44,264 nucleotides of DNA from a virus (IMGVR_UViG_3300049846_000087:1-44264); one strand, 5' to 3'; shown: positions 166-41,875, numbered from the stretch's first letter. Notes: generated from the letters alone by a model not told the origin. Made by a program: numbers and translations.

Positions 166-411
166 CTACGACGTTTCTCGTGAAACCTTCTGGTAGATGC
201 CAAGAATGTTCTCTTCAACAATCTCGTCAATCGCTCGCTCAATTGCAAGAAGTTGATCAGCTTCCGAAATGTCATATGAAGACTGAACGATCCTAGCAAG
301 GTAAGAAGTTGAATGATAACCTTGCGCCTCGTCGTACTGGTACCAGGAGTCAAACTCAACAAAAGGATCGTAGGGATTGTCAATAGTTGTAAGCATGTAC
401 TCTACAGCCAT
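166..411 (-). CDS. Conserved small phage protein, function unknown
   Basis: 81 residues from the ATG at 411. Its A is also the last base of the upstream TGA (TGATG), so it is probably translationally coupled to the RNA-polymerase-like gene. The site GGAGGGC lies 7 bases before the ATG. The protein is acidic and mixed alpha/beta in character, with an aromatic stretch (FDSWYQYDEAQGYH) and a helical second half (ADQLLAIERAIDEIVEENI). I see no membrane segment and no known catalytic motif. From memory, similar small proteins sit beside the same polymerase-like gene in other phages, so a role as partner or regulator is possible but unproven. It is the last gene before the window end. Confidence 0.75.
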   Translation of the reverse strand: MAVEYMLTTIDNPYDPFVEFDSWYQYDEAQGYHSTSYLARIVQSSYDISEADQLLAIERAIDEIVEENILGIYQKVSRETS

Positions 412-3038
412 CACTTGCCCTCCAATCCTCTCTGAAGAGTAGACACTGACATGCCTAGGGCAGAGGCTACTTCAGACAGGGTGTGTCCAGCAGCCAGCAT
501 TGACTGGGCACGACGCTTCTTTGTAGATGTCATAAGCACCTTGATCTTAGGCAATGCACGTTCCTTGACTAGATCTAGGTCTGTGTTGTTAAGAATCTGA
601 AGAAGCTTAGTATTAGTAATTGCACCTGCCTGAATGGCTTCCCATTCCTTGTCTGTGATGTCAACAAGAGTCTTCTTAGCACCTACTCTAGCACGGGCTT
701 CTTGAAGATCTCTGTATTGAATCTTCTTTAGCGTTTCCTTCTCCATGTCAGGATTAGCCTTGCGCTTTGCTTCTGATGTCGCATTGGCTATGACCTGGGC
801 TTGTCTTTCACGGGGGGCGTTCTCTAAAGCAATGGCGAGCTTTGCATTCAAAGACTCGACTTCCTTAGAGTAGACTCTCTTTGCAGAAGGGGAGGAAACT
901 AGACTTGGTGTGTTGGCTGCTTCTCTACGGGCTTCATTAGCAAGGGCCTTTAGTTTGTTACTGTGATCTGCATACACCTTCTCTACTGGGGTACCAGAAG
1001 AAAGCGTGTGGGCATCGTCAGTAACAGCGAGCTTCTTGCTCTTAGTGGTCTTAGCAACAAGCCTGCCCTTCTTGTCCACGTAGGTGTTACCAGTAGGAAG
1101 ATAGATCTTCTTTCCAGTTTCAGGATCCGTGCGGACAAGCATCTTTCTTTCAGGAACATCAGCCCTAGACTTAGCCCTAGAGATTAGCGTAGATGCGCCC
1201 GATCCATCGGCAGACTTCTGATAGCGTTCCTTTAGATTCTTGATGTTGTTCTCTTCATAAGAACGCTTGTAATCAAGCTTATGCTTGTATGCATCAATCA
1301 CTACCATGGAATGCCTGATAGCACGAGCAATCTCTTCATGAGAAGCACCCTTAATCTGCATGTCTGTGATCAGATTAGTGATGTTACCCATTTCAGGCTG
1401 AATGCGCTGCTTAGACATGGTCTGCATACCAGGATAGTACTTGTACTGCTGCTTAGGATCAAAGTTCTTAAGACCCTCTAGTGGAGGAGAAGTCTTAACA
1501 GAACCCTTGTTATTGGGAATTACTAGAACTGAATCGCCGTCAAAGTCTGCGCCAGAGAGACGCTCTGCTGTGCTAGGATGAATTCCAATAGCATCCTTTG
1601 AGTCAGTTGGAATCATCTTTCTAGCTTCGCGATTCCTATTATTGACAACAAGTTCTGGAATCTCAAAGGTTCCACCATGAGGGTGGCGAATCAGAACAAC
1701 CTTTTCTCCATCATTGTAGCCTGGAGCATAAACCTCGTTAGGCTTAAGGCTGCTGATTGGAAGAATCACTTTAGACGTAGTCCTAGGAAGACCGGCTGCC
1801 TTAAGGTGGACTGCAGAAGAATCTGCGCCCTCAGCAAAGGTTTCTAGAAGCTTCTTACGAACTGTCGGATTTGTAAGAGACATGATAGTCTCAAACTCAT
1901 TACGCTTAGACTCATACGTAAGATCAAGCTGCTGCTTAGCTAGAGTGTGAGGCTGCTTAGACAGCATCTGTGAAGAGAGCTGAGAGGCCCAGTTATTCCA
2001 ATCACCCTCTTCATTGACGATGTTCATAACGCCATGCTGCCTATCAATGGTAGAACCAAACGGGTTGTCTGGATCATCCTCACTGAATGGCTTCATAGCA
2101 TCAAGCTTGCTTTTAGCATCCTTCTTTGACTTAGTCGAGTTGTAGATGATGTCTACACCAGGAGGCATGTCATCCTTGTAAACCGCCATGCCCTTCATGT
2201 AGTGACTAGCATCTACAGCAATGCGAACCTGAGCATATCGACTAGAACCAAGAGAAATGTCGTCTACACCACGACGAACATAGATGACACCATCAGCGTT
2301 GCCACCACCATCTTCAGCCCAGTTAACCTTGACTCGCTTAGAACTGATCGAGGTCGGATACTGAATCTTTCTGGTGAATGTGACACCACCATCATCAGAT
2401 CCATCACGAACAATCTTGATCTTGTCTCGGTTAGCCATAACCTTGTTGTATGAGACGCCAGGAGCAGTAAGAACGGGAATGGTAGTCTCGAAACCTGTAC
2501 CGAGCTGAGGGACACGAACGTAGTGAACGACATAACCCTCATGCTTGAGCATTGCTACAGCAGTCTTGAACTTGTTTCGAGTAATCCCCATGTAACGCTC
2601 ATTGCCAGCACCAACGTCAATGTACTCCTTTTCACGAACAAGATCCTTGAGGAAGTTCGCAATGTTGTGGAGGACATCAAGCTTGTCCTTGGCTCCTGGA
2701 GCAAGCAGATTACGAATCGTGGATTCAGGGAGATTCATCTCACGGCCGATAGCCATGTTAGAAAGTCCCTTTTCCTTGAGCTTCATAGCTCTAGCAATTC
2801 GATATTGCTTCTCACGGTTAAGCTCGATAGATCGCATAGCACGGAATTCTGAAGTGTTCTTCAGACCCATGCCTTCTGCAATCTCTCTTTCAGTAAGCCC
2901 TTCCTTCTTCAGACGAGCAGCCATGTCAAGGAAAGACTCATTTCGACTATTCCCATCACCACCAGAACCCCACGGATAGCGACCAGAATGCCGTGGCGTA
3001 CCATAGTGGGAGAGAGCGTTTTGTTCGTCGATGATCAT
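411..3038 (-). CDS. Single-chain two-barrel RNA polymerase candidate with helix-turn-helix regions
   Basis: 875 residues. Residues 494-503 read LSGADFDGDS, the metal-binding loop of the beta-prime barrel of multisubunit RNA polymerases, preceded by an RxP (about 451-453) and an HPxxxxRL segment (487-494) as in beta-prime. Residues 281-299 (MKGMAVYKDDMPPGVDIIY) resemble the beta-subunit NKG...EDMP...GTPVDI segment that carries the second barrel lysine. Both barrels on one chain in this order is the arrangement of YonO-like and crAss-phage polymerases. Helix-turn-helix-like stretches lie near 49-60 and 90-112 and at the C terminus (about 840-873), possibly for promoter recognition. The N terminus carries LSHYGTPRHSGRYPWGSG. 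The start overlaps the upstream nuclease stop by 4 bases (ATGA). Activity is inferred from motifs; a different DFDGD-type enzyme is the main alternative. Confidence 0.72.
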   Translation of the reverse strand: MIIDEQNALSHYGTPRHSGRYPWGSGGDGNSRNESFLDMAARLKKEGLTEREIAEGMGLKNTSEFRAMRSIELNREKQYRIARAMKLKEKGLSNMAIGREMNLPESTIRNLLAPGAKDKLDVLHNIANFLKDLVREKEYIDVGAGNERYMGITRNKFKTAVAMLKHEGYVVHYVRVPQLGTGFETTIPVLTAPGVSYNKVMANRDKIKIVRDGSDDGGVTFTRKIQYPTSISSKRVKVNWAEDGGGNADGVIYVRRGVDDISLGSSRYAQVRIAVDASHYMKGMAVYKDDMPPGVDIIYNSTKSKKDAKSKLDAMKPFSEDDPDNPFGSTIDRQHGVMNIVNEEGDWNNWASQLSSQMLSKQPHTLAKQQLDLTYESKRNEFETIMSLTNPTVRKKLLETFAEGADSSAVHLKAAGLPRTTSKVILPISSLKPNEVYAPGYNDGEKVVLIRHPHGGTFEIPELVVNNRNREARKMIPTDSKDAIGIHPSTAERLSGADFDGDSVLVIPNNKGSVKTSPPLEGLKNFDPKQQYKYYPGMQTMSKQRIQPEMGNITNLITDMQIKGASHEEIARAIRHSMVVIDAYKHKLDYKRSYEENNIKNLKERYQKSADGSGASTLISRAKSRADVPERKMLVRTDPETGKKIYLPTGNTYVDKKGRLVAKTTKSKKLAVTDDAHTLSSGTPVEKVYADHSNKLKALANEARREAANTPSLVSSPSAKRVYSKEVESLNAKLAIALENAPRERQAQVIANATSEAKRKANPDMEKETLKKIQYRDLQEARARVGAKKTLVDITDKEWEAIQAGAITNTKLLQILNNTDLDLVKERALPKIKVLMTSTKKRRAQSMLAAGHTLSEVASALGMSVSTLQRGLEGK

Positions 3039-3595
3039 GACAACGCCTCAATCCTTAGCTCTTGGATACGCCGGTCAAAGACGACGATCTTATCCATGAT
3101 GTGAGCAATTTCTTCTGGATCACCGATTGTGACATCAACTTCATCGTTCTGGTAGATCCTGAATTCCATGGCAATATCAAAAGGCTTGAAGTGATACTCA
3201 AGACAGAACATAGCAGCATAAACCTTGAGCTGCGTTGGCTGTCTAGGAATCACGCCAGTCTTAAGATCATGAATTCTAAGGAAGTTTCCTCTAAACGAAA
3301 TACTGTCTGCAGTACCAAAACAGTTGTCCGAGTAGTAAAGAACCTGCTCAGAAGTCATACGGAAGCCAATAGCGTCGTTCACATACATGTTAAGAGACTT
3401 GTTACTACGTGGAAGCTTCTGACCGAGACGGATCAGATCATGTGCCAGAGCATGAAGTTCCGTTCCACGCTGTGCAGCGATGGATGAAAGGAACACTCGT
3501 TCAAGCTTCTCGTCATCGTAGTTAACCCAGTGGTACTTGCTAGCGCCGAGAAACGCGTGCTGACCTACGAGATTTGAATGCGTGTTGAAGAGCAT
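3035..3595 (-). CDS. PD-(D/E)XK nuclease, RecB/Cas4-like
   Basis: 186 residues from the ATG at 3595, chosen because GAGAGAGG lies about 6 bases upstream; ATGs at 3613 and 3649 are possible but less well placed. Motifs of the RecB/Cas4 nuclease fold appear in order: RGTELHALAH (43-52), GTADSI (94-99, acidic motif), HDLKTG (109-114, the D..K pair of the PD-(D/E)XK core) and QLKVYA (122-127). Such phage nucleases act in replication, recombination or DNA processing, usually with helicases. No cysteine cluster for an iron-sulfur site as in true Cas4 is evident. The gene overlaps the VRR-NUC gene by 56 bases and the polymerase-like gene by 4, forming one tight operon. Confidence 0.75.
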   Translation of the reverse strand: MLFNTHSNLVGQHAFLGASKYHWVNYDDEKLERVFLSSIAAQRGTELHALAHDLIRLGQKLPRSNKSLNMYVNDAIGFRMTSEQVLYYSDNCFGTADSISFRGNFLRIHDLKTGVIPRQPTQLKVYAAMFCLEYHFKPFDIAMEFRIYQNDEVDVTIGDPEEIAHIMDKIVVFDRRIQELRIEALS

Positions 3596-3869
3596 CCAGT
3601 ACCTCTCTCTCATTCTCTGGATAAATGAACGCAGCGAAAGACATCTCATCTAGCTTTTCAATGTAATACGCTTGGTTAGGCTGTTCAGGGGAATCCCAAG
3701 AAGCCTTAACCTCTAGCATCGCCCACTTATCACGATAGAAAATTGAAAGATCTGGAATACCCTGCAGGTACGCAGAGTCATTCTTCAAGACCAGACAACC
3801 GGGGAACATCTCGTTAAGAGTCTTGATCAGCGCACGCTGGTACTCTCTTTCAAGACGAGATTCTTGCAT
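3540..3869 (-). CDS. VRR-NUC domain nuclease
   Basis: 109 residues, about the size of a stand-alone phage VRR-NUC domain. The core reads QGIPDLSIF (36-44) and LEVKAS (52-57), giving the PD...ExK signature, followed by a Q/Y-rich helix (NQAYYIEKL). Stand-alone VRR-NUC proteins cut branched DNA, resembling Holliday junction resolvases, and in phages usually lie beside an SF2 helicase, as here. An AGGTG site precedes the ATG. The gene is first in a group with the RecB/Cas4-like nuclease and the polymerase-like gene. The last residues are basic (KSRRSARVSRR). Confidence 0.85.
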   Translation of the reverse strand: MQESRLEREYQRALIKTLNEMFPGCLVLKNDSAYLQGIPDLSIFYRDKWAMLEVKASWDSPEQPNQAYYIEKLDEMSFAAFIYPENEREVLDALQHAFKSRRSARVSRR

Positions 3870-3923
3870 TCTACACCTCCAAAATTAAAAAGAGGGTAAA
3901 ATGGCAAGGCATAACTTCACCCC

Positions 3924-3942
3924 TTCTATCATAAGCTGCGAT
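3924..3942 (-). promoter_or_regulatory. Weak promoter candidate upstream of the VRR-NUC gene
   Basis: In the 3870-3956 gap the minus strand reads TCGCAGCTTATGATAGAAG. It combines TCGCA with GCTTATGATAGAA, which resembles the right half of the nine-copy 32-bp element (AGCTTATAATGAGAA), but the spacer is lost. TATGAT is an acceptable -10 box, 55-60 bases before the ATG at 3869. It may be a degenerate copy of the element or an ordinary host promoter. Confidence 0.35.
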
Positions 3943-6037: not shown

Positions 6038-6069
6038 GGTTCTCACTATAAGCTGTGTTTACGCTGCGA
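6038..6069 (-). promoter_or_regulatory. 32-bp promoter element, copy 1
   Basis: Minus strand: TCGCA, spacer with AAACACAGC, then TTATAGTGAGAACC. It is one of nine aligned copies. It lies 20 bases before the ATG at 6018 and abuts the preceding gene's terminator. The -10-like box is TATAGT. There is no TTGACA-like box at normal spacing. Confidence 0.75.
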
Positions 6070-6351: not shown

Positions 6352-6383
6352 GGTTCTCACTATAAGCTGTGATTTCCATGCGA
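6352..6383 (-). promoter_or_regulatory. 32-bp promoter element, copy 2
   Basis: Minus strand: TCGCA, then AAATCACAGC, then TTATAGTGAGAACC. It lies 26 bases before the ATG at 6326. The -10-like box is TATAGT, as in copy 1. Confidence 0.75.
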
Positions 6384-6635: not shown

Positions 6636-6667
6636 GGTTCTCATTATACCCTCTGTTTTTATTGCGA
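6636..6667 (-). promoter_or_regulatory. 32-bp promoter element, copy 3
   Basis: Minus strand: TCGCA, ATAAAAACAGAGGG, then TATAATGAGAACC. It lies 23 bases before the ATG at 6613. Confidence 0.78.
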
Positions 6668-6876: not shown

Positions 6877-6908
6877 GATTCTCATTACAAGGCGTGTTTT
6901 CTATGCGA
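6877..6908 (-). promoter_or_regulatory. 32-bp promoter element, copy 4 (divergent)
   Basis: Minus strand: TCGCA, TAGAAAACACGCCT, then TGTAATGAGAATC. It is the most divergent in the -10 box. It begins 3 bases after the stop of the gene at 6911 and lies 24 bases before the ATG at 6853. Confidence 0.7.
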
Positions 6909-14252: not shown

Positions 14253-14999
14253 TCAGTCGTCAGTCTCTCGGAACCGCCGAAGAGAAGGCTTGTCCTCGTG
14301 CTTGAATCCAAGAACCTCTTCGGAGTACTTCCCGTCGGCAAGAGTAACCTCGAAATCGATTTCGAGATTCTCATTCCGAATAAATACGACGCGAGGATCC
14401 TTAGAGCCGTGTCCGAATCGCTCGAGATTATCCTCTCCAACGATAAGGTCGACATCAGGAATGTGCTTGTTAGCCTCATCGACAAGAACTTCGTCGCCCT
14501 GGTAGTAGGTCAGGGCCTGAGACGTGTTAGCACTCTCGTAGAACTCATCGAACGAAATCACGTACGGACGATCCGGAGAACGCTCCTCAGCGTCAATGTC
14601 CAGATCGAGGTACTTGCTGTCCGTGAAAACGTTCTTGCTAATCTCTACCACCCCATCAGGCTCAGAAGGCTCCACAATATAGCCCTCTTCCCTTGCGATC
14701 TTTGCGGAATGATACTTAGCAATGCTCTTCTCGGGGTCCTCGTCAGCCTCGATCAGAGCCTCGACGGCGTCTTCAGGACTCTCATACTCCTTGTGCGAGA
14801 CCAGATGGGTGCCGTAGTACTTCTTTGTGGCAGCAATCTCGGCAGAGAGACGCTCGTCGTACTGAGCGTTAAGCTGCCTAATGGCTACGTAATAACCCGC
14901 AACGAACGCTGCATCCAGACCGATAAAGATCATCGCTCGGTCCAGAAGCTTCTTGTTGGTGGCAAGTGACTTCAGCGCAGAGACGTTGATGATGTTCAT
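14253..14999 (-). CDS. Membrane-anchored conserved phage protein, 248 residues
   Basis: N-terminal hydrophobic helix (LDRAMIFIGLDAAFVAGYYV, about residues 19-38), then a charged helical linker (about 60-105) and a globular, acidic C-terminal domain containing RPYVISFDEF, LTYYQGDEVLVDEA and ERFGHGSKDPRVVFIR. This layout fits a membrane-tethered protein with its domain in the cytoplasm or outside. It overlaps the preceding DUF6353-like gene by 4 bases. Function is unknown; the conserved gene order suggests that it works with its neighbours. Confidence 0.78.
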   Translation of the reverse strand: MNIINVSALKSLATNKKLLDRAMIFIGLDAAFVAGYYVAIRQLNAQYDERLSAEIAATKKYYGTHLVSHKEYESPEDAVEALIEADEDPEKSIAKYHSAKIAREEGYIVEPSEPDGVVEISKNVFTDSKYLDLDIDAEERSPDRPYVISFDEFYESANTSQALTYYQGDEVLVDEANKHIPDVDLIVGEDNLERFGHGSKDPRVVFIRNENLEIDFEVTLADGKYSEEVLGFKHEDKPSLRRFRETDD

Positions 15000-15913
15000 C
15001 GGCCGATCCCATACTGTCCACGGAACTTGTTGTACTGGTCAATCTTGTGGTTGATCACGCCATCGACGTTGAAGTCGAGGAGGACAGAAGACTCGAACCC
15101 GGTGACAAAGGCTCGAGCAGCGTCCGTACGACCCTCGAAAATCCCGAAGTCAATGTAAGCATCTCCACCAATCCCATCGAAGACCCAGCCGACGACAGAA
15201 CCGGCAGTGGTCTCAGGGAATCCGAGAGAATTGTACACCTCATTCAGAAGAACATAACCGCGTGCAGCAAGACGGTCATTGAAGTAGTTCTGCTGAGTCC
15301 TCAGGAAAATCTTGTTGTGCAGAGGGTCTGGCTTCCAGTTTGCGTTTGTCTCATCGAACCAGACACAGTACATCGAGTACTGCGAAGCCCCCTTCTTGCC
15401 CTTCGGACCTTCAACGCTGGTCTGTCGCTTGAGCTCGTTTTCCTGAGACCGATAGTGCAGGTTACGCTCAGCATCCTCACCGATCTCCTCTCGGACACGA
15501 CGGCGGTACGCGTTGTAGGAGCGCTCGAGACCAGCGTAAGCGGCCGTGAGAGCAGCATTGCGCTTGGTTAGCATGTTGTGGGAACCAGTAAGGCAGACAA
15601 CACCCACAGCACCCACCACAACGGCGGGACCGTAGAGACGCGTCAAGTCGATCGCGAGGTCACCATATGCGATAACCTTCTCACGAACGATCGCCTGGTT
15701 GGTGATGTCCTCTCGCTTCTCGATCTCGCGCAGATCATCGAGAACATCCTGAGTCTCTGCCAGAGTGGACTCGAGCTTGAGGGTTGCACGGCAAGCAAGA
15801 ACAGTACTTGCGCCCATCGCGGCAATGCCGACGACGAACATGAGGGTCGGGCTGTTGGTCTTGAGGGCGAGTACCTGCTTCGAGACCGTTCGAGTCAGCG
15901 AATTGAGAGCCAT
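14996..15913 (-). CDS. DUF6353-like membrane protein, longer paralogue
   Basis: 305 residues. Two membrane segments: SPTLMFVVGIAAMGASTVLA (about 21-40) and YGPAVVVGAVGVVCLTGS (about 113-130), with a charged helical region between them. Then RNAALTAAYAGLERSYNAYR, a charged helix, and a long C-terminal soluble region (about 185-305) containing the segment NYFNDRLAARGYVLLNEVYN. It shares layout and residues with the 258-residue product at 17809-18585 (NSPxxxxxxGxxG, RAxLK, ALxAAYxxxERxxxxY). AAGGAGATAG precedes the ATG. Function is unknown. Confidence 0.8.
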   Translation of the reverse strand: MALNSLTRTVSKQVLALKTNSPTLMFVVGIAAMGASTVLACRATLKLESTLAETQDVLDDLREIEKREDITNQAIVREKVIAYGDLAIDLTRLYGPAVVVGAVGVVCLTGSHNMLTKRNAALTAAYAGLERSYNAYRRRVREEIGEDAERNLHYRSQENELKRQTSVEGPKGKKGASQYSMYCVWFDETNANWKPDPLHNKIFLRTQQNYFNDRLAARGYVLLNEVYNSLGFPETTAGSVVGWVFDGIGGDAYIDFGIFEGRTDAARAFVTGFESSVLLDFNVDGVINHKIDQYNKFRGQYGIGR

Positions 15914-16904: not shown

Positions 16905-16936
16905 GGTTCTCATTATACGCTGTGATTTTAGTGCGA
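16905..16936 (-). promoter_or_regulatory. 32-bp promoter element, copy 5
   Basis: Minus strand: TCGCA, CTAAAATCACAGCG, TATAATGAGAACC. It lies 24 bases before the ATG at 16881. Confidence 0.8.
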
Positions 16937-17033: not shown

Positions 17034-17450
17034 TCACTCAGGAAGAGACGACTCTTCGATCTGCTTCTTGGCAGCAGCAAGAGCCTCCTGCGGGAGAACC
17101 CCGTTCATGAAGTCTGCGATGGTGTCAGGCTTCTCCAGGAAACCGTCGATCAGAGCAGAATATGCCTCCGAGACGATAAAGTCTTCATAAAGCGGCTGAT
17201 TGTAGCGAACCTTGGCAAACTTCTGAGTCAGCTCATCGCGCTCACCGTAAGACCTCTTGATGAGGAACGTAAGGCCACGGAAGATGCCACGGTTATCGCC
17301 AGAGGCGAGTGAACGCTGGAAGTCGTTGATAAAACCGTCGCTGGTCTCAGACTCCATGGAAATGATCTCGGCCTTGGTGAGGTGGAAGAACAGATCTTCC
17401 TCACGAGGCGTACCATCATAGTCGACGTACTTAACAGTCTTCTTGAGCAT
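17034..17450 (-). CDS. Conserved phage protein, 138 residues
   Basis: From the ATG at 17450 (AAAGGAACCCAC upstream); the longer frame upstream runs through a terminator hairpin and is rejected. It begins MLKKTVKYVDYDGTPREEDL, a signature of a phage protein family known to me from gut phages. Then FHLTKAEIISME, a helical middle and ERDELTQKFAKVRYN. Soluble and alpha/beta. No 32-bp promoter element lies directly upstream, so it may depend on readthrough or on an unidentified promoter. Function is unknown. Confidence 0.78.
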   Translation of the reverse strand: MLKKTVKYVDYDGTPREEDLFFHLTKAEIISMESETSDGFINDFQRSLASGDNRGIFRGLTFLIKRSYGERDELTQKFAKVRYNQPLYEDFIVSEAYSALIDGFLEKPDTIADFMNGVLPQEALAAAKKQIEESSLPE

Positions 17451-17473
17451 GTGGGTTCCTTTACATAGACAAA

Positions 17474-17501
17474 CCCATAGACCTTGGTTAGGGCCTATGG
17501 G
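17474..17501 (-). terminator. Hairpin terminator after the 75-residue membrane gene
   Basis: Minus-strand stem CCCATAGGCC/GGTCTATGGG with a loop of 8 bases, followed by TTTG. It lies 22 bases after the stop at 17524. Confidence 0.72.
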
Positions 17502-17523
17502 CATGAGGGTCCTTCTCGTGGGG

Positions 17524-17774: not shown

Positions 17775-17806
17775 GGTTCTCATTATACGCTCTGTTTTTC
17801 TTGCGA
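17775..17806 (-). promoter_or_regulatory. 32-bp promoter element, copy 6
   Basis: Minus strand: TCGCA, AGAAAAACAGAGCG, TATAATGAGAACC, identical to copy 8. It starts 3 bases after the stop of the 258-residue gene, with no terminator between. It lies 24 bases before the ATG at 17751. Confidence 0.82.
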
Positions 17807-17808
17807 GT

Positions 17809-18585
17809 TTACACGAGCCGAGAATACCCTCTGATGGGCTGCAGGCGGTACATGATGACGACACAAGGCTTATCGTCCTCAGTAAGGGCTGTAGAGAACT
17901 CGACATCGAAGTTCACATCGAGATTCCAACCCATTTCATCCGAAATAGAGGTGTTTCGGAGACCGATCAGGTTGTAGAAGTCGCTCAAACTGGCGTAGTT
18001 GTCGTTCCTGATCTTGAAGTTGATGTCGTTGACGGCCTTTCGGATCGCCTCGACATTGCTGACGAAATATCGCCCACTGATAGAGTCCAGACAAAGCACG
18101 TCCGTACCAGTGATGATGATCTCTCGATCGCTCTTCTTGGTCGTTCGCACCTTATCTTGAGCGACCTCGTCGCGTACTGCAATAGCCTTCTTCTCACCGA
18201 TCTTCTCGACCACTTTGTCCTTGTAATCGGCGAAAGCACGCTCGGACAAAGTGTAAGCAGCCGCAAGAGCTGCTGCACGTCGGTTGCCGATCCTATTCGC
18301 CGCAATGATGCAGGTGATCGTGACTGCGCCGGTGGTGACTGGAGGAATATAGACAGGCCAGACCAGAAGCACCTTCTCCTTGAGCGTGGGCTGGTAGTCC
18401 AAATCTCCGGTCTGAGTGTAGCGCTCCTCAGTAGCCTCGTAGAGAATATCATCGGCCTTGAGCGCTGCGCGGCCAGTAAGGACGGCCGTCGTGATCGTAC
18501 CTACAACCCCAATCGCTGTACAGATCGCGGGGGAGTTGTCGACAGCGAGCTTCTCAACTCGCTTCAGGATCTCTGTCACGCTCAC
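17809..18585 (-). CDS. DUF6353-like membrane protein, shorter paralogue
   Basis: 258 residues from the GTG at 18585, with AGGAGG 7 bases upstream; the longer frame upstream would cross a promoter and lacks a site. Two hydrophobic segments (AICTAIGVVGTITTAVLTG, about 21-39, and YIPPVTTGAVTITCIIAA, about 78-95), then RRAALAAAYTLSERAFADYK and a soluble C-terminal region. It aligns in layout with the 305-residue product at 14996-15913. A leader of about 85 bases with a GCTGAT/ATCAGC hairpin separates it from its promoter element. Function is unknown. Confidence 0.8.
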   Translation of the reverse strand: MSVTEILKRVEKLAVDNSPAICTAIGVVGTITTAVLTGRAALKADDILYEATEERYTQTGDLDYQPTLKEKVLLVWPVYIPPVTTGAVTITCIIAANRIGNRRAAALAAAYTLSERAFADYKDKVVEKIGEKKAIAVRDEVAQDKVRTTKKSDREIIITGTDVLCLDSISGRYFVSNVEAIRKAVNDINFKIRNDNYASLSDFYNLIGLRNTSISDEMGWNLDVNFDVEFSTALTEDDKPCVVIMYRLQPIRGYSRLV

Positions 18586-18671
18586 AATATAACCTCCTGG
18601 ATGTGGTGAGCGGCAAAAAATAAGAAGGTGAGATTCTGCTGATGCGCAACTATCAGCTTGTAAATGCTCTT
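18586..18671 (-). promoter_or_regulatory. Long leader with hairpin upstream of the 258-residue gene
   Basis: All other genes behind a 32-bp element start within about 26 bases of it; this one starts 87 bases away. The leader holds a GCTGAT/ATCAGC stem (18652-18657 with 18638-18643) and a T-run (CTTATTTTTTGCC) shortly after, a possible pause or attenuator. An AGGAGG site follows. Confidence 0.4.
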
Positions 18672-18703
18672 TCCTCTCATTATAGGATGTGTTTTTCTTG
18701 CGA
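18672..18703 (-). promoter_or_regulatory. 32-bp promoter element, copy 7
   Basis: Minus strand: TCGCA, AGAAAAACACATCC, TATAATGAGAGGA. The last three bases differ from the GAGAACC of the other copies. Only this copy has a long leader behind it. Confidence 0.75.
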
Positions 18704-18712
18704 GTTGGCAAA

Positions 18713-18738
18713 CCCATAGACCTTGTGGGGTCTATGGG
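18713..18738 (-). terminator. Hairpin terminator after the 62-residue membrane gene
   Basis: Minus-strand perfect stem CCCATAGACC/GGTCTATGGG with loop CCACAA, followed by TTTG. It lies 10 bases after the stop at 18749 and next to promoter copy 7. Confidence 0.78.
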
Positions 18739-18959: not shown

Positions 18960-18991
18960 GGTTCTCATTATACGCTCTGTTTTTCTTGCGA
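18960..18991 (-). promoter_or_regulatory. 32-bp promoter element, copy 8
   Basis: Minus strand: TCGCA, AGAAAAACAGAGCG, TATAATGAGAACC. It lies 23 bases before the ATG at 18937. The heptamer GAGAACC recurs in the ribosome binding site (AAGGAGAACCCC). Confidence 0.82.
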
Positions 18992-19403: not shown

Positions 19404-19435
19404 GGTTCTCATTATAAGCTGTGCTTATAGTGCGA
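19404..19435 (-). promoter_or_regulatory. 32-bp promoter element, copy 9
   Basis: Minus strand: TCGCA, CTATAAGCACAGCT, TATAATGAGAACC. It begins 8 bases after the stop of the holin-like gene and lies 20 bases before the ATG at 19384, so the late operon could read through into it. Confidence 0.8.
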
Positions 19436-41035: not shown

Positions 41036-41875
41036 TTAACCTCCCAGTACGAGTGCGATTGCTACCGATGAACCGCCAGATCCACTTGGACCGGCTGGTC
41101 CCTGAGGACCGGTTGCGCCAGTCGGGCCTTGTGGTCCCTGAGGACCGGTGGCACCAGTTGTACCCTGAGGTCCTTGCGCGCCCGTAGCGCCTGCGGGACC
41201 TTGCGGACCAGTGGCACCAACAAGAGAAGCAAGCCAAGCAGTCAGGTTCCCAACAAATCCCTGAGATACTGCAAGCTCATAAGCACTAAGACCATTACTA
41301 CCAGCAGACCCTGCGGGGCCCTGGGGACCGGTTGCGCCTGTGGCACCAGTAGAGCCTGTGTCACCCTTCAGACCCTGTGGGCCCTGAGGACCGGTAGCAC
41401 CATCAGCACCAGGAATACCCTGAGGACCCTGAGCTCCTGTCGAGCCGGTGTCGCCCTTTAGACCCTGTGGCCCCTGAGGTCCGGTAGCACCTGTAGATCC
41501 CGTGTCGCCCTTTAGACCCTGAGGGCCCTGAGGACCGGTTGCGCCAGTAAAACCAGCGGGACCCTGAGGGCCGGTAGCGCCCGCAGCACCATCAGCACCA
41601 GGAAGACCCTGAGGACCTTGAGGCCCGGCAGGACCAGGCGGACCCTGTGCGCCCTCAACGCCATCAAGAACCGCGTCCACTAGTGCATCATGAATAAGAG
41701 CCGCAATTGCAACCTGGTCCACGAAATAGTCAAGGTCCGTCCAAAGACCGTAGCCGTTACCGACCTTGAATCTATTAGTATCGGACTCCCACCCGATCTC
41801 TCCAGAGCGGAGAGTAGGATTCTTCTCGGTCCACTCAGCGGCAGTACCGCGACGGACCTGGATCCTGTACCTCAC
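41036..41875 (-). CDS. Collagen-like tail fibre protein
   Basis: 279 residues, GTG start at 41875 with GGAGG 6 bases upstream. N-terminal domain ([20 protein letters not shown] ... [20 protein letters not shown]), seen in phage fibre N termini, then a collagen region of GXY triplets (about residues 72-270) with recurring [10 protein letters not shown] and [10 protein letters not shown] units, interrupted once by [20 protein letters not shown] (about 197-216). Such rods form triple helices and hold distal receptor-binding domains. The C terminus is short ([15 protein letters not shown]), so adjacent genes may supply the tip. Confidence 0.87.
41080..41660 (-). repeat. DNA repeats encoding collagen-type GXY triplets
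   Basis: Tandem near-identical blocks of CCCTGAGGACCGGT, TTTAGACCCTGTGGGCCCTG and similar, with a period of 9-18 bases on the coding frame, from the GXY repeats of the fibre gene. Three copies of an 18-residue unit with KGDTGSTG are visible. They are prone to slippage and recombination. They are not CRISPR. Confidence 0.85.

Follow-up and report, generated by a model that had tools for sequence, protein, structure and literature searches.

A single-chain two-barrel RNA polymerase candidate of phage family PHROG 4291 and a promoter-like element linked to it

Gene content of the window and family assignment

The window analysed here is an entire virus record of IMG/VR, 44,264 bp long and classed as linear; all features whose coordinates are given below lie on its minus strand. 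The layout of that strand is siphophage-like, with genes for terminase, portal, protease-capsid and tail, a block of small genes next, and after it the genes for a DNA primase/polymerase, a single-strand annealing protein, a helicase, an HNH protein, a VRR-Nuc protein, a Cas4 exonuclease, the protein P0001 and PHROG 4303. The operon of interest opens with an endonuclease gene (3540..3869; phrog_93, 6e-13; annotated as VRR-Nuc in relatives), followed by a Cas4/RecB-type exonuclease gene (3035..3649; phrog_3953, 3e-79) and the gene of P0001 (411..3038), which is assigned to a single-chain two-barrel RNA polymerase on the basis of its open reading frame and of profile and fold matches. Directly after it comes the gene for the small conserved protein PHROG 4303 (166..414), and the same gene occupies the same place in six phages. 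The first-pass annotation had described an open reading frame of 875 residues at 411-3038 and named no strand; the reading frame is real and runs on the minus strand. The gene order of the window matches the annotation of the Streptomyces phages RosaAsantewaa and Moozy, and is kept, with insertions, in Gordonia phage Tanis and Arthrobacter phage Mudcat.

The PHROG 4291 profile matches P0001 over its full length (1223 bits, residues 3-873 on positions 6-906 of 909). The protein family is not new, as it is already catalogued under this number, where it carries the label "RNA-dependent RNA polymerase". A tblastn search found relatives in 250 phage records, with identities reaching 56%, which name them mostly as HTH protein or RNA-dependent RNA polymerase and once, in FP_oengus, as "putative RNA polymerase". 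Relatives are also encoded in contigs of IMG/VR and GTDB, numbering at least 518 and 156, and among the 80 GTDB contigs listed most belong to Firmicutes. No experimental characterisation of any PHROG 4291 member was found in the papers searched.

Active-site residues and predicted fold

Two polymerase-like motifs had been read from the sequence at the outset, and both are where they were placed: LSGADFDGDS occupies residues 494-503, and the beta-like segment MKGMAVYKDDMPPGVDIIY residues 281-299. They are not chance resemblances, because Q270, R272, K282, R451, P453, H454, D498, D500, D502 and K585, the catalytic residues among them, are identical in all 38 aligned homologues. The catalytic triad motif DFDGD itself (residues 498-502; 1533..1547) is located by sequence, conservation and model in the loop before strand 503-508. 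The HPxxxxRL that had been noted upstream of it is present in P0001 but is not a feature of the family (H487 is found in 15, P488 in 14 and R493 in 24 of the 38 sequences), and the conserved element upstream of DFDGD is R451-x-P453-H454. P0001 contains no cysteines.

An AlphaFold2 model of P0001, built with 37 relatives, has a mean pLDDT of 84.3 and a pTM of 0.67. Its best PDB matches in Foldseek are all two-barrel polymerases, namely QDE-1 (2j7n_B, E 3.6e-9), P74-26 gp62, a Thermus phage gp64 and RDR2 (E < 1e-3 for 8f5m, 8f72 and RDR2), with crAss gp66 as a weak match (E 6e-3). VIA-align places residues 226-712 of the model on residues 680-1197 of QDE-1 (374 residues, rmsd 4.7, Z 19.0), a match which spans both barrels, since those of QDE-1 lie at 680-792 and 916-1018 (PMC1750930), inside the aligned range. 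The score is equally Z 19.0 for RDR2, about 14.5 for the Thermus phage nvRNAPs and about 11.5 for the large subunits of Pol I-III, the latter aligning mainly on the beta'-type part, from about residue 412. These whole-protein comparisons bear on residues 226-712, and hardly on residues 1-225 and 713-875. From the QDE-1 alignment, which starts at 226, and from conservation, a beta-type double-psi barrel is predicted at about residues 228-345 (2004..2357), with the invariant Q270, R272 and K282. The beta'-type double-psi barrel is placed at about residues 417-510 (1509..1790) by the YonO profile match, by hhalign and by the msRNAP large subunits aligning from about residue 412. The earlier reading of a single chain in beta-then-beta' order agrees with the matches to QDE-1, RDR2 and nvRNAPs of the P74-26 and P23-45 type over residues ~226-712; the predicted fold has double-psi barrels, and the alignments do not put DFDGD outside a barrel loop.

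At the sequence level, the phrog_8308 profile, which corresponds to YonO (1220 bits for YonO itself), matches residues 427-510 of P0001 (E 1.2e-5, 25 bits). An hhalign comparison with YonO covers 122 columns and pairs DFDGD with the YonO DNDGD, and the sub-profile of this barrel scores 30.7 against YonO, compared with at most 22.2 for 12 shuffles. The homology of the DFDGD barrel to this proven polymerase is weak but real. For the beta-type barrel, the alignment of K282-G283 with K271-G272 of YonO is no better than shuffled controls, and the support for this barrel comes from the predicted fold, with no significant contribution from sequence. A full-length match to the YonO family (PHROG 8308) and the YonO-type four-cysteine C-terminus are both absent. 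The msRNAP domains RNA_pol_Rpb1 and RNA_pol_Rpb2 of Pfam gave no match in P0001 up to E 10, and among the sequences of solved structures the family profile found only a weak beta' match, in the correct place (E ~0.5). The identity of P0001 as a polymerase is well supported.

Many records imply a different template, with the enzyme copying phage or host RNA as an RNA-dependent RNA polymerase. Besides these record names, QDE-1 and RDR2 come closest among the solved folds, and the Pfam RdRP model matches 12 of 38 members weakly at E ≤ 0.01 (for P0001, the eukaryotic-type PF05183 reaches 13.8 bits, below its gathering score of 23.8). However, QDE-1 copies DNA too, and there are PDB entries with DNA templates; the detectable phage relative, YonO, is strictly DNA-dependent (PMC5467207); and DNA is also indicated by the HTH modules and by the linked promoter element in duplex DNA described below. 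An RNA template is accordingly most improbable in our view, and P0001 would synthesise RNA from DNA.

Terminal DNA-binding regions

The chain begins with a helical, HTH-like segment at residues 36-60 (2859..2933; model helices 36-45 and 50-56; phrog_11457 at 32-60, 3e-5). It is followed by an HTH resembling sigma region 4 at residues 84-113 (2700..2789), for which the Sigma70_r4_2 model matches residues 89-113 of P0001 with 23.0 bits, just under its cut-off of 25.7. The same model matches 34 of the 38 family members at E ≤ 0.01 (best 4.8e-12) and, when N-terminal fragments alone are searched, 32 of 48 (best 1.1e-9); in both sets generic HTH models match too. At the other end, a C-terminal HTH occupies residues 838-872 (423..527; model helices 838-849, 854-861 and 865-872), where Pfam HTH_23 matches residues 840-870 with 35.9 bits (5.9e-9), above its cut-off. 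The first-pass annotation had described HTH-like regions at both ends, which these matches bear out, and had suggested that they replace a sigma factor. The latter part is a hypothesis that has gained support from the sigma-region-4 matches in most of the family, from the family-linked promoter-like element and from a scan of 20 other proteins of the window, almost all of them non-structural, which turned up no further HTH or sigma domain.

A repeated promoter-like element in the window

A search for repeats in the window picked out a 40-nt element with nine copies, all of them intergenic and on the coding strand. The pattern CGCR-N6-ACA-N5-TATAATGA has nine matches on this strand and one weak match on the opposite one, where shuffling gives an expectation of 1.3; with one N too many it has no match, the window included. 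Copies 3 (6641..6666), 6 (17780..17805), 7 (18677..18702) and 8 (18965..18990) have no mismatches, copies 1 (6043..6068), 4 (6882..6907, hexamer TGTAAT), 5 (16910..16935) and 9 (19409..19434) have one, and copy 2 (6357..6382) has two. In eight of the nine, a ribosome site and a start codon follow at 26-32 nt after the G, the start codon lying at 26 nt for copies 1 and 9, 29 nt for copies 3 and 8, 30 nt for copies 4, 5 and 6, and 32 nt for copy 2; copy 7 has a longer leader and no near start codon. The sites stand before small genes that lie upstream of two regions, the one for replication and the one from helicase to polymerase, and none of the nine precedes a structural gene. A leader hairpin with a U-run lies before the polymerase operon (3884..3930; -13.4 kcal/mol, z -2.3), and is itself preceded by a promoter-like copy, TATGATAGAAGGG; that the copy at this operon is diverged is a point against the proposal made below.

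The element across phages and sequence collections

De novo EM was run on intergenic sequence from six cultured phages that belong to the family and represent two phyla. The element emerged again in the phages of Streptomyces, Gordonia, Arthrobacter and Lactococcus, and FP_oengus yielded a variant of it within a broader set. In all six phages the motif scores at least 34 log units above shuffles, and it takes the form CGCAGAAAATACACGTCCTATAATGAGACCCC in Tanis, CGCGTAAATTACA.GGGCTATAATGA in Mudcat, TTTTAAGTTTTACATACCCTATAATGAA in P118 and CGCGAAAAATACAGCCTCCTTTATGGA in FP_oengus. Its spacing is invariant across the family phages. The hexamer is TATAAT in actinophages and TTTTAT in Firmicutes phages, often TTAAAT in Rosa and CTTTAT in FP_oengus, and conservation runs on past it as GA, GAGACC or GAAGAG. 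The perfect TATAAT of the actinophage hexamer could be used by the host sigma-A holoenzyme.

In a scan of 2.9 million viral contigs, exact matches to the actinophage form occur in at least 120 stretches, against 3 for a control with the ACA slid by one base, and the Firmicutes form, CGCR-N6-ACA-N4-CTTTTATGAAG, likewise in at least 120, against 1 for the control slid by one base. A full-length or nearly full-length PHROG 4291 protein is encoded by 30 of 50 motif contigs with the actinophage form and by 23 of the 24 whose length is 40 kb or more; for the Firmicutes form the gene is found in 28 of 31 motif contigs of at least 40 kb. With both forms pooled, 51 of 55 such contigs carry the gene and 4 do not. 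In the one exception with the actinophage form (G066), the DNA polymerase of the lineage is present about 11.5 kb from a contig end, and the RNA polymerase gene may have been cut off there. Six control contigs contained no motif, and none was found in the SPbeta, phi14:2 and P23-45 pieces or in 637 kb of YonO loci. Among bacterial contigs with the gene, 65 of 78 have a relaxed core of the element within 2 kb upstream of the polymerase, typically at about 950 nt, compared with 4-12 loci for slid versions.

The leader at the bacterial loci folds as a hairpin, the paired fraction being 0.42 before the G that follows the hexamer and 0.71 from there on. This suggests that transcripts start at this G, since the leader hairpin begins there (compare the phiKZ transcripts discussed below). 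A quite different function would be that of a site for a repressor or another phage regulator, similar to a stoperator, and conserved intergenic sites in many copies are indeed typical of actinophage operators. Yet the orientation of the motif strictly follows the genes (109 sites, versus 12 on the opposite strand), its distance to start codons is short and constant, the hexamer is AT-rich and of the melting type, and the leader hairpins start at the G of the element, so that we give very little credence to a regulator site. The 30-base signal, which is found almost only in phages bearing the family, is probably the transcription start site of the polymerase. No published description of this promoter was found in the open-access literature, and a matching promoter candidate seems undescribed.

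Which polymerase reads the element

The element could also be a middle promoter of the host polymerase, with a phage activator on the CGCR...ACA half and sigma-A on TATAAT, while the phage polymerase would read some other promoter that has gone unrecognised. T4 MotA binds the -30 box of middle promoters, and an upstream box at a fixed distance from a -10 hexamer is an arrangement known for activators. In actinophages the hexamer matches the sigma-A consensus, and the element is tied to the whole phage lineage and not to the polymerase alone. On the other hand, host sigma-A requires A at position 2 of the hexamer, which is T in 67% of Firmicutes sites. The element is probably not a host promoter, judging from its sequence, because of these TTTTAT hexamers and those of Rosa and FP_oengus, because its conservation extends beyond the hexamer, and because TTGACA at 15-19 nt is not enriched above random. 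The scan of 20 window proteins also offered no further HTH protein as an activator. We therefore hold an activated host promoter to be unlikely.

The link between promoter and polymerase is correlative and confounded by lineage. PHROG 4291 shares its phage genera, and its numbers in them, with the DNA polymerase PHROG 4210, and both are present together in the same 28 motif contigs. Any factor of the lineage could for this reason read the motif, be it an unrecognised one or an activator of the host polymerase. A genetic separation of the polymerase from its lineage was not possible, owing to this co-occurrence. The near-perfect association with PHROG 4210, and the position of the polymerase gene among recombination and replication genes, would also suit an enzyme that makes primers or replication transcripts, and not mRNA, together with this primase/polymerase. 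That DNA polymerase, however, has a primase/helicase-like N-terminus of its own (PHROG primase matches at ~114-425), and the motif is followed, 26-32 nt on, by start codons that have a ribosome site, in the manner of mRNA promoters; a role in priming thus appears very unlikely.

Proposed mechanism

In our judgement, P0001 is likely to be a self-contained, DNA-dependent phage RNA polymerase for early and middle genes, with two barrels in a single chain and a promoter class of its own. In the predicted fold, the beta-type barrel (Q270, R272 and K282) and the beta'-type barrel with its metal-binding DFDGD would form the active cleft, and catalysis is inferred by analogy with YonO. The sigma-region-4-like N-terminal HTH and the C-terminal HTH would stand in for a sigma factor and direct the enzyme to one promoter class, CGCR-N6-ACA-N5-TATAATG in actinophages and CGCR-N6-ACA-N5-TTTTATG in Firmicutes phages, where the G is the likely first transcribed base in view of where the hairpins start. 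The enzyme would most likely transcribe early and middle genes, because the small genes that the motif sites precede lie in front of the replication and polymerase regions and no structural gene has such a site before it, and late genes would be left to the host polymerase, as for P23-45 gp64 (PMC10770324). A polymerase made in the cell cannot begin its own first transcript. The first polymerase could come from the host enzyme acting at TATAAT-type sites, or could be carried in the virion.

For PHROG 4291 as a whole, we lean towards a sigma-free transcription system in one protein. In phages from two or more bacterial phyla, a two-barrel RNA polymerase that carries a sigma-4-like HTH as a fusion, together with another HTH, would recognise a promoter of 30 bp with rigid spacing, CGCR-N6-ACA-N5-TWTWATG, and start at its G; the operon of the enzyme itself would bear the element and a leader hairpin at the extreme 5' end of the transcript.

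Comparison with known systems

The nearest relatives are the PHROG 4291 phages of Arthrobacter, Gordonia, Streptomyces, Curtobacterium, Lactococcus (P118 and 1706) and Faecalibacterium (FP_oengus), whose proteins are 36-57% identical to P0001, in most of which the order Cas4 exonuclease, polymerase, PHROG 4303 is the same as in the window, and which have the promoter-like element in common with it. YonO of SPbeta is a DNA-dependent RNA polymerase that transcribes late genes, and its triad has been shown to be catalytic (PMC5467207). Like P0001 it is a single chain of similar length, the DNDGD and DFDGD barrels are homologous by profile, and an exonuclease gene is near (yonJ in SPbeta). There is however no full-length homology; YonO ends in four cysteines, invariant in 22 YonO relatives, whereas P0001 is cysteine-free; the searched SPbeta pieces and YonO loci lack the motif, which PHROG 4291 phages have; and the early/middle role proposed for P0001 differs from the late-gene transcription by YonO (PMC5467207). 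P23-45 gp64 and P74-26 gp62 (8f72 and 8f5m) are likewise single-chain two-barrel phage RNA polymerases (Z ~14.5), and the P23-45 gp64 nvRNAP transcribes early and some middle genes from a promoter motif of its own (PMC10770324). The Thermus phage nvRNAPs are however shorter, at ~600 residues compared with 875, and the promoter motif of P23-45 gp64 is GC-rich. QDE-1 and RDR2, from eukaryotic RNA silencing, are the best fold match (Z 19) and have the same barrel order, but differ in their RNA-dependent function and in their N- and C-terminal domains.

On the promoter side, the phiKZ nvRNAP promoter is TATG, with transcripts beginning at the G (PMC12809450), and that of AR9 is AACA-6N-TA/G (PMC5312081). 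Both resemble the element in being short and T/A-rich and in ending in a G at the proposed start, and there is an ACA box. Their enzymes are multisubunit with a sigma-like subunit, unlike P0001, their promoters have no CGCR box, and the spacing differs, with 11 nt from ACA to G in the element and 7 nt from AACA to the start in AR9. The polymerases with two barrels in a single chain are seen as possible relics of the enzyme from which the RNA polymerases of all cells descend, and how they find promoters is an open question; for YonO, the promoter sequence and the need for helper factors were left undetermined (PMC5467207). For the widespread PHROG 4291 family, which has culturable members among the phages of Streptomyces, Gordonia, Arthrobacter and Lactococcus, there is now a promoter hypothesis at base level and a candidate recognition domain, so that a single protein and a single DNA of 40 bp would be enough to test this question.

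The small gene adjoining the polymerase gene

Directly 3' of the polymerase gene lies a gene (window 166-414, minus strand) of the PHROG 4303 family, whose members are small proteins of 76-90 amino acids with an invariant D-N-P motif. The polymerase gene is immediately followed by this gene in each of the six cultured phages compared, which range from Streptomyces to Lactococcus phages, as at the phage loci L304 (42276-42548), L324 (49582-49830), L326 (49651-49881) and L327 (31391-31660). The protein is a candidate partner subunit or factor.

Exact copies of the Firmicutes-type motif (hexamer TTTTAT) are also present in three viral contigs of 41-113 kb (G097, G101 and G102, the contigs of loci L497, L511 and L512) in which a full-length PHROG 4291 (polymerase) match was not found. 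The motif matches could be due to chance, or the contigs could be incomplete pieces or encode a polymerase that has diverged.

Other genes of the window

The motif-containing block includes two DUF6353/PHROG 2152 paralogues without assigned function (14996-15913 and 17809-18717, minus strand; 222 and 279 bits). A protein resembling the tail assembly chaperone Phage_TAC_17 (4e-22) is encoded at 17037-17504 (minus strand), in a non-structural block distant from the tape measure gene. A tail/fibre-type protein (41073-41680) carries 12 overlapping copies of the collagen-like repeat GPQGPQG.

Leader structures

The leader of the polymerase operon contains a hairpin followed by a U-run (window 3884-3930, minus strand), the hairpin starting where transcription is proposed to begin. 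It was found again in most Firmicutes loci; in the bacterial loci L068, L072, L075 and L081 it precedes the polymerase gene by about 950 nt. The motif copy at 18677-18702 (minus strand) is the only one without a start codon close by; the 100 nt after it hold a purine-rich/pyrimidine-rich pair and a T-run, ahead of a DUF6353 gene, and this is perhaps a second leader terminator. The polymerase-operon hairpin itself looks like an attenuator or a protective stem at the 5' end.
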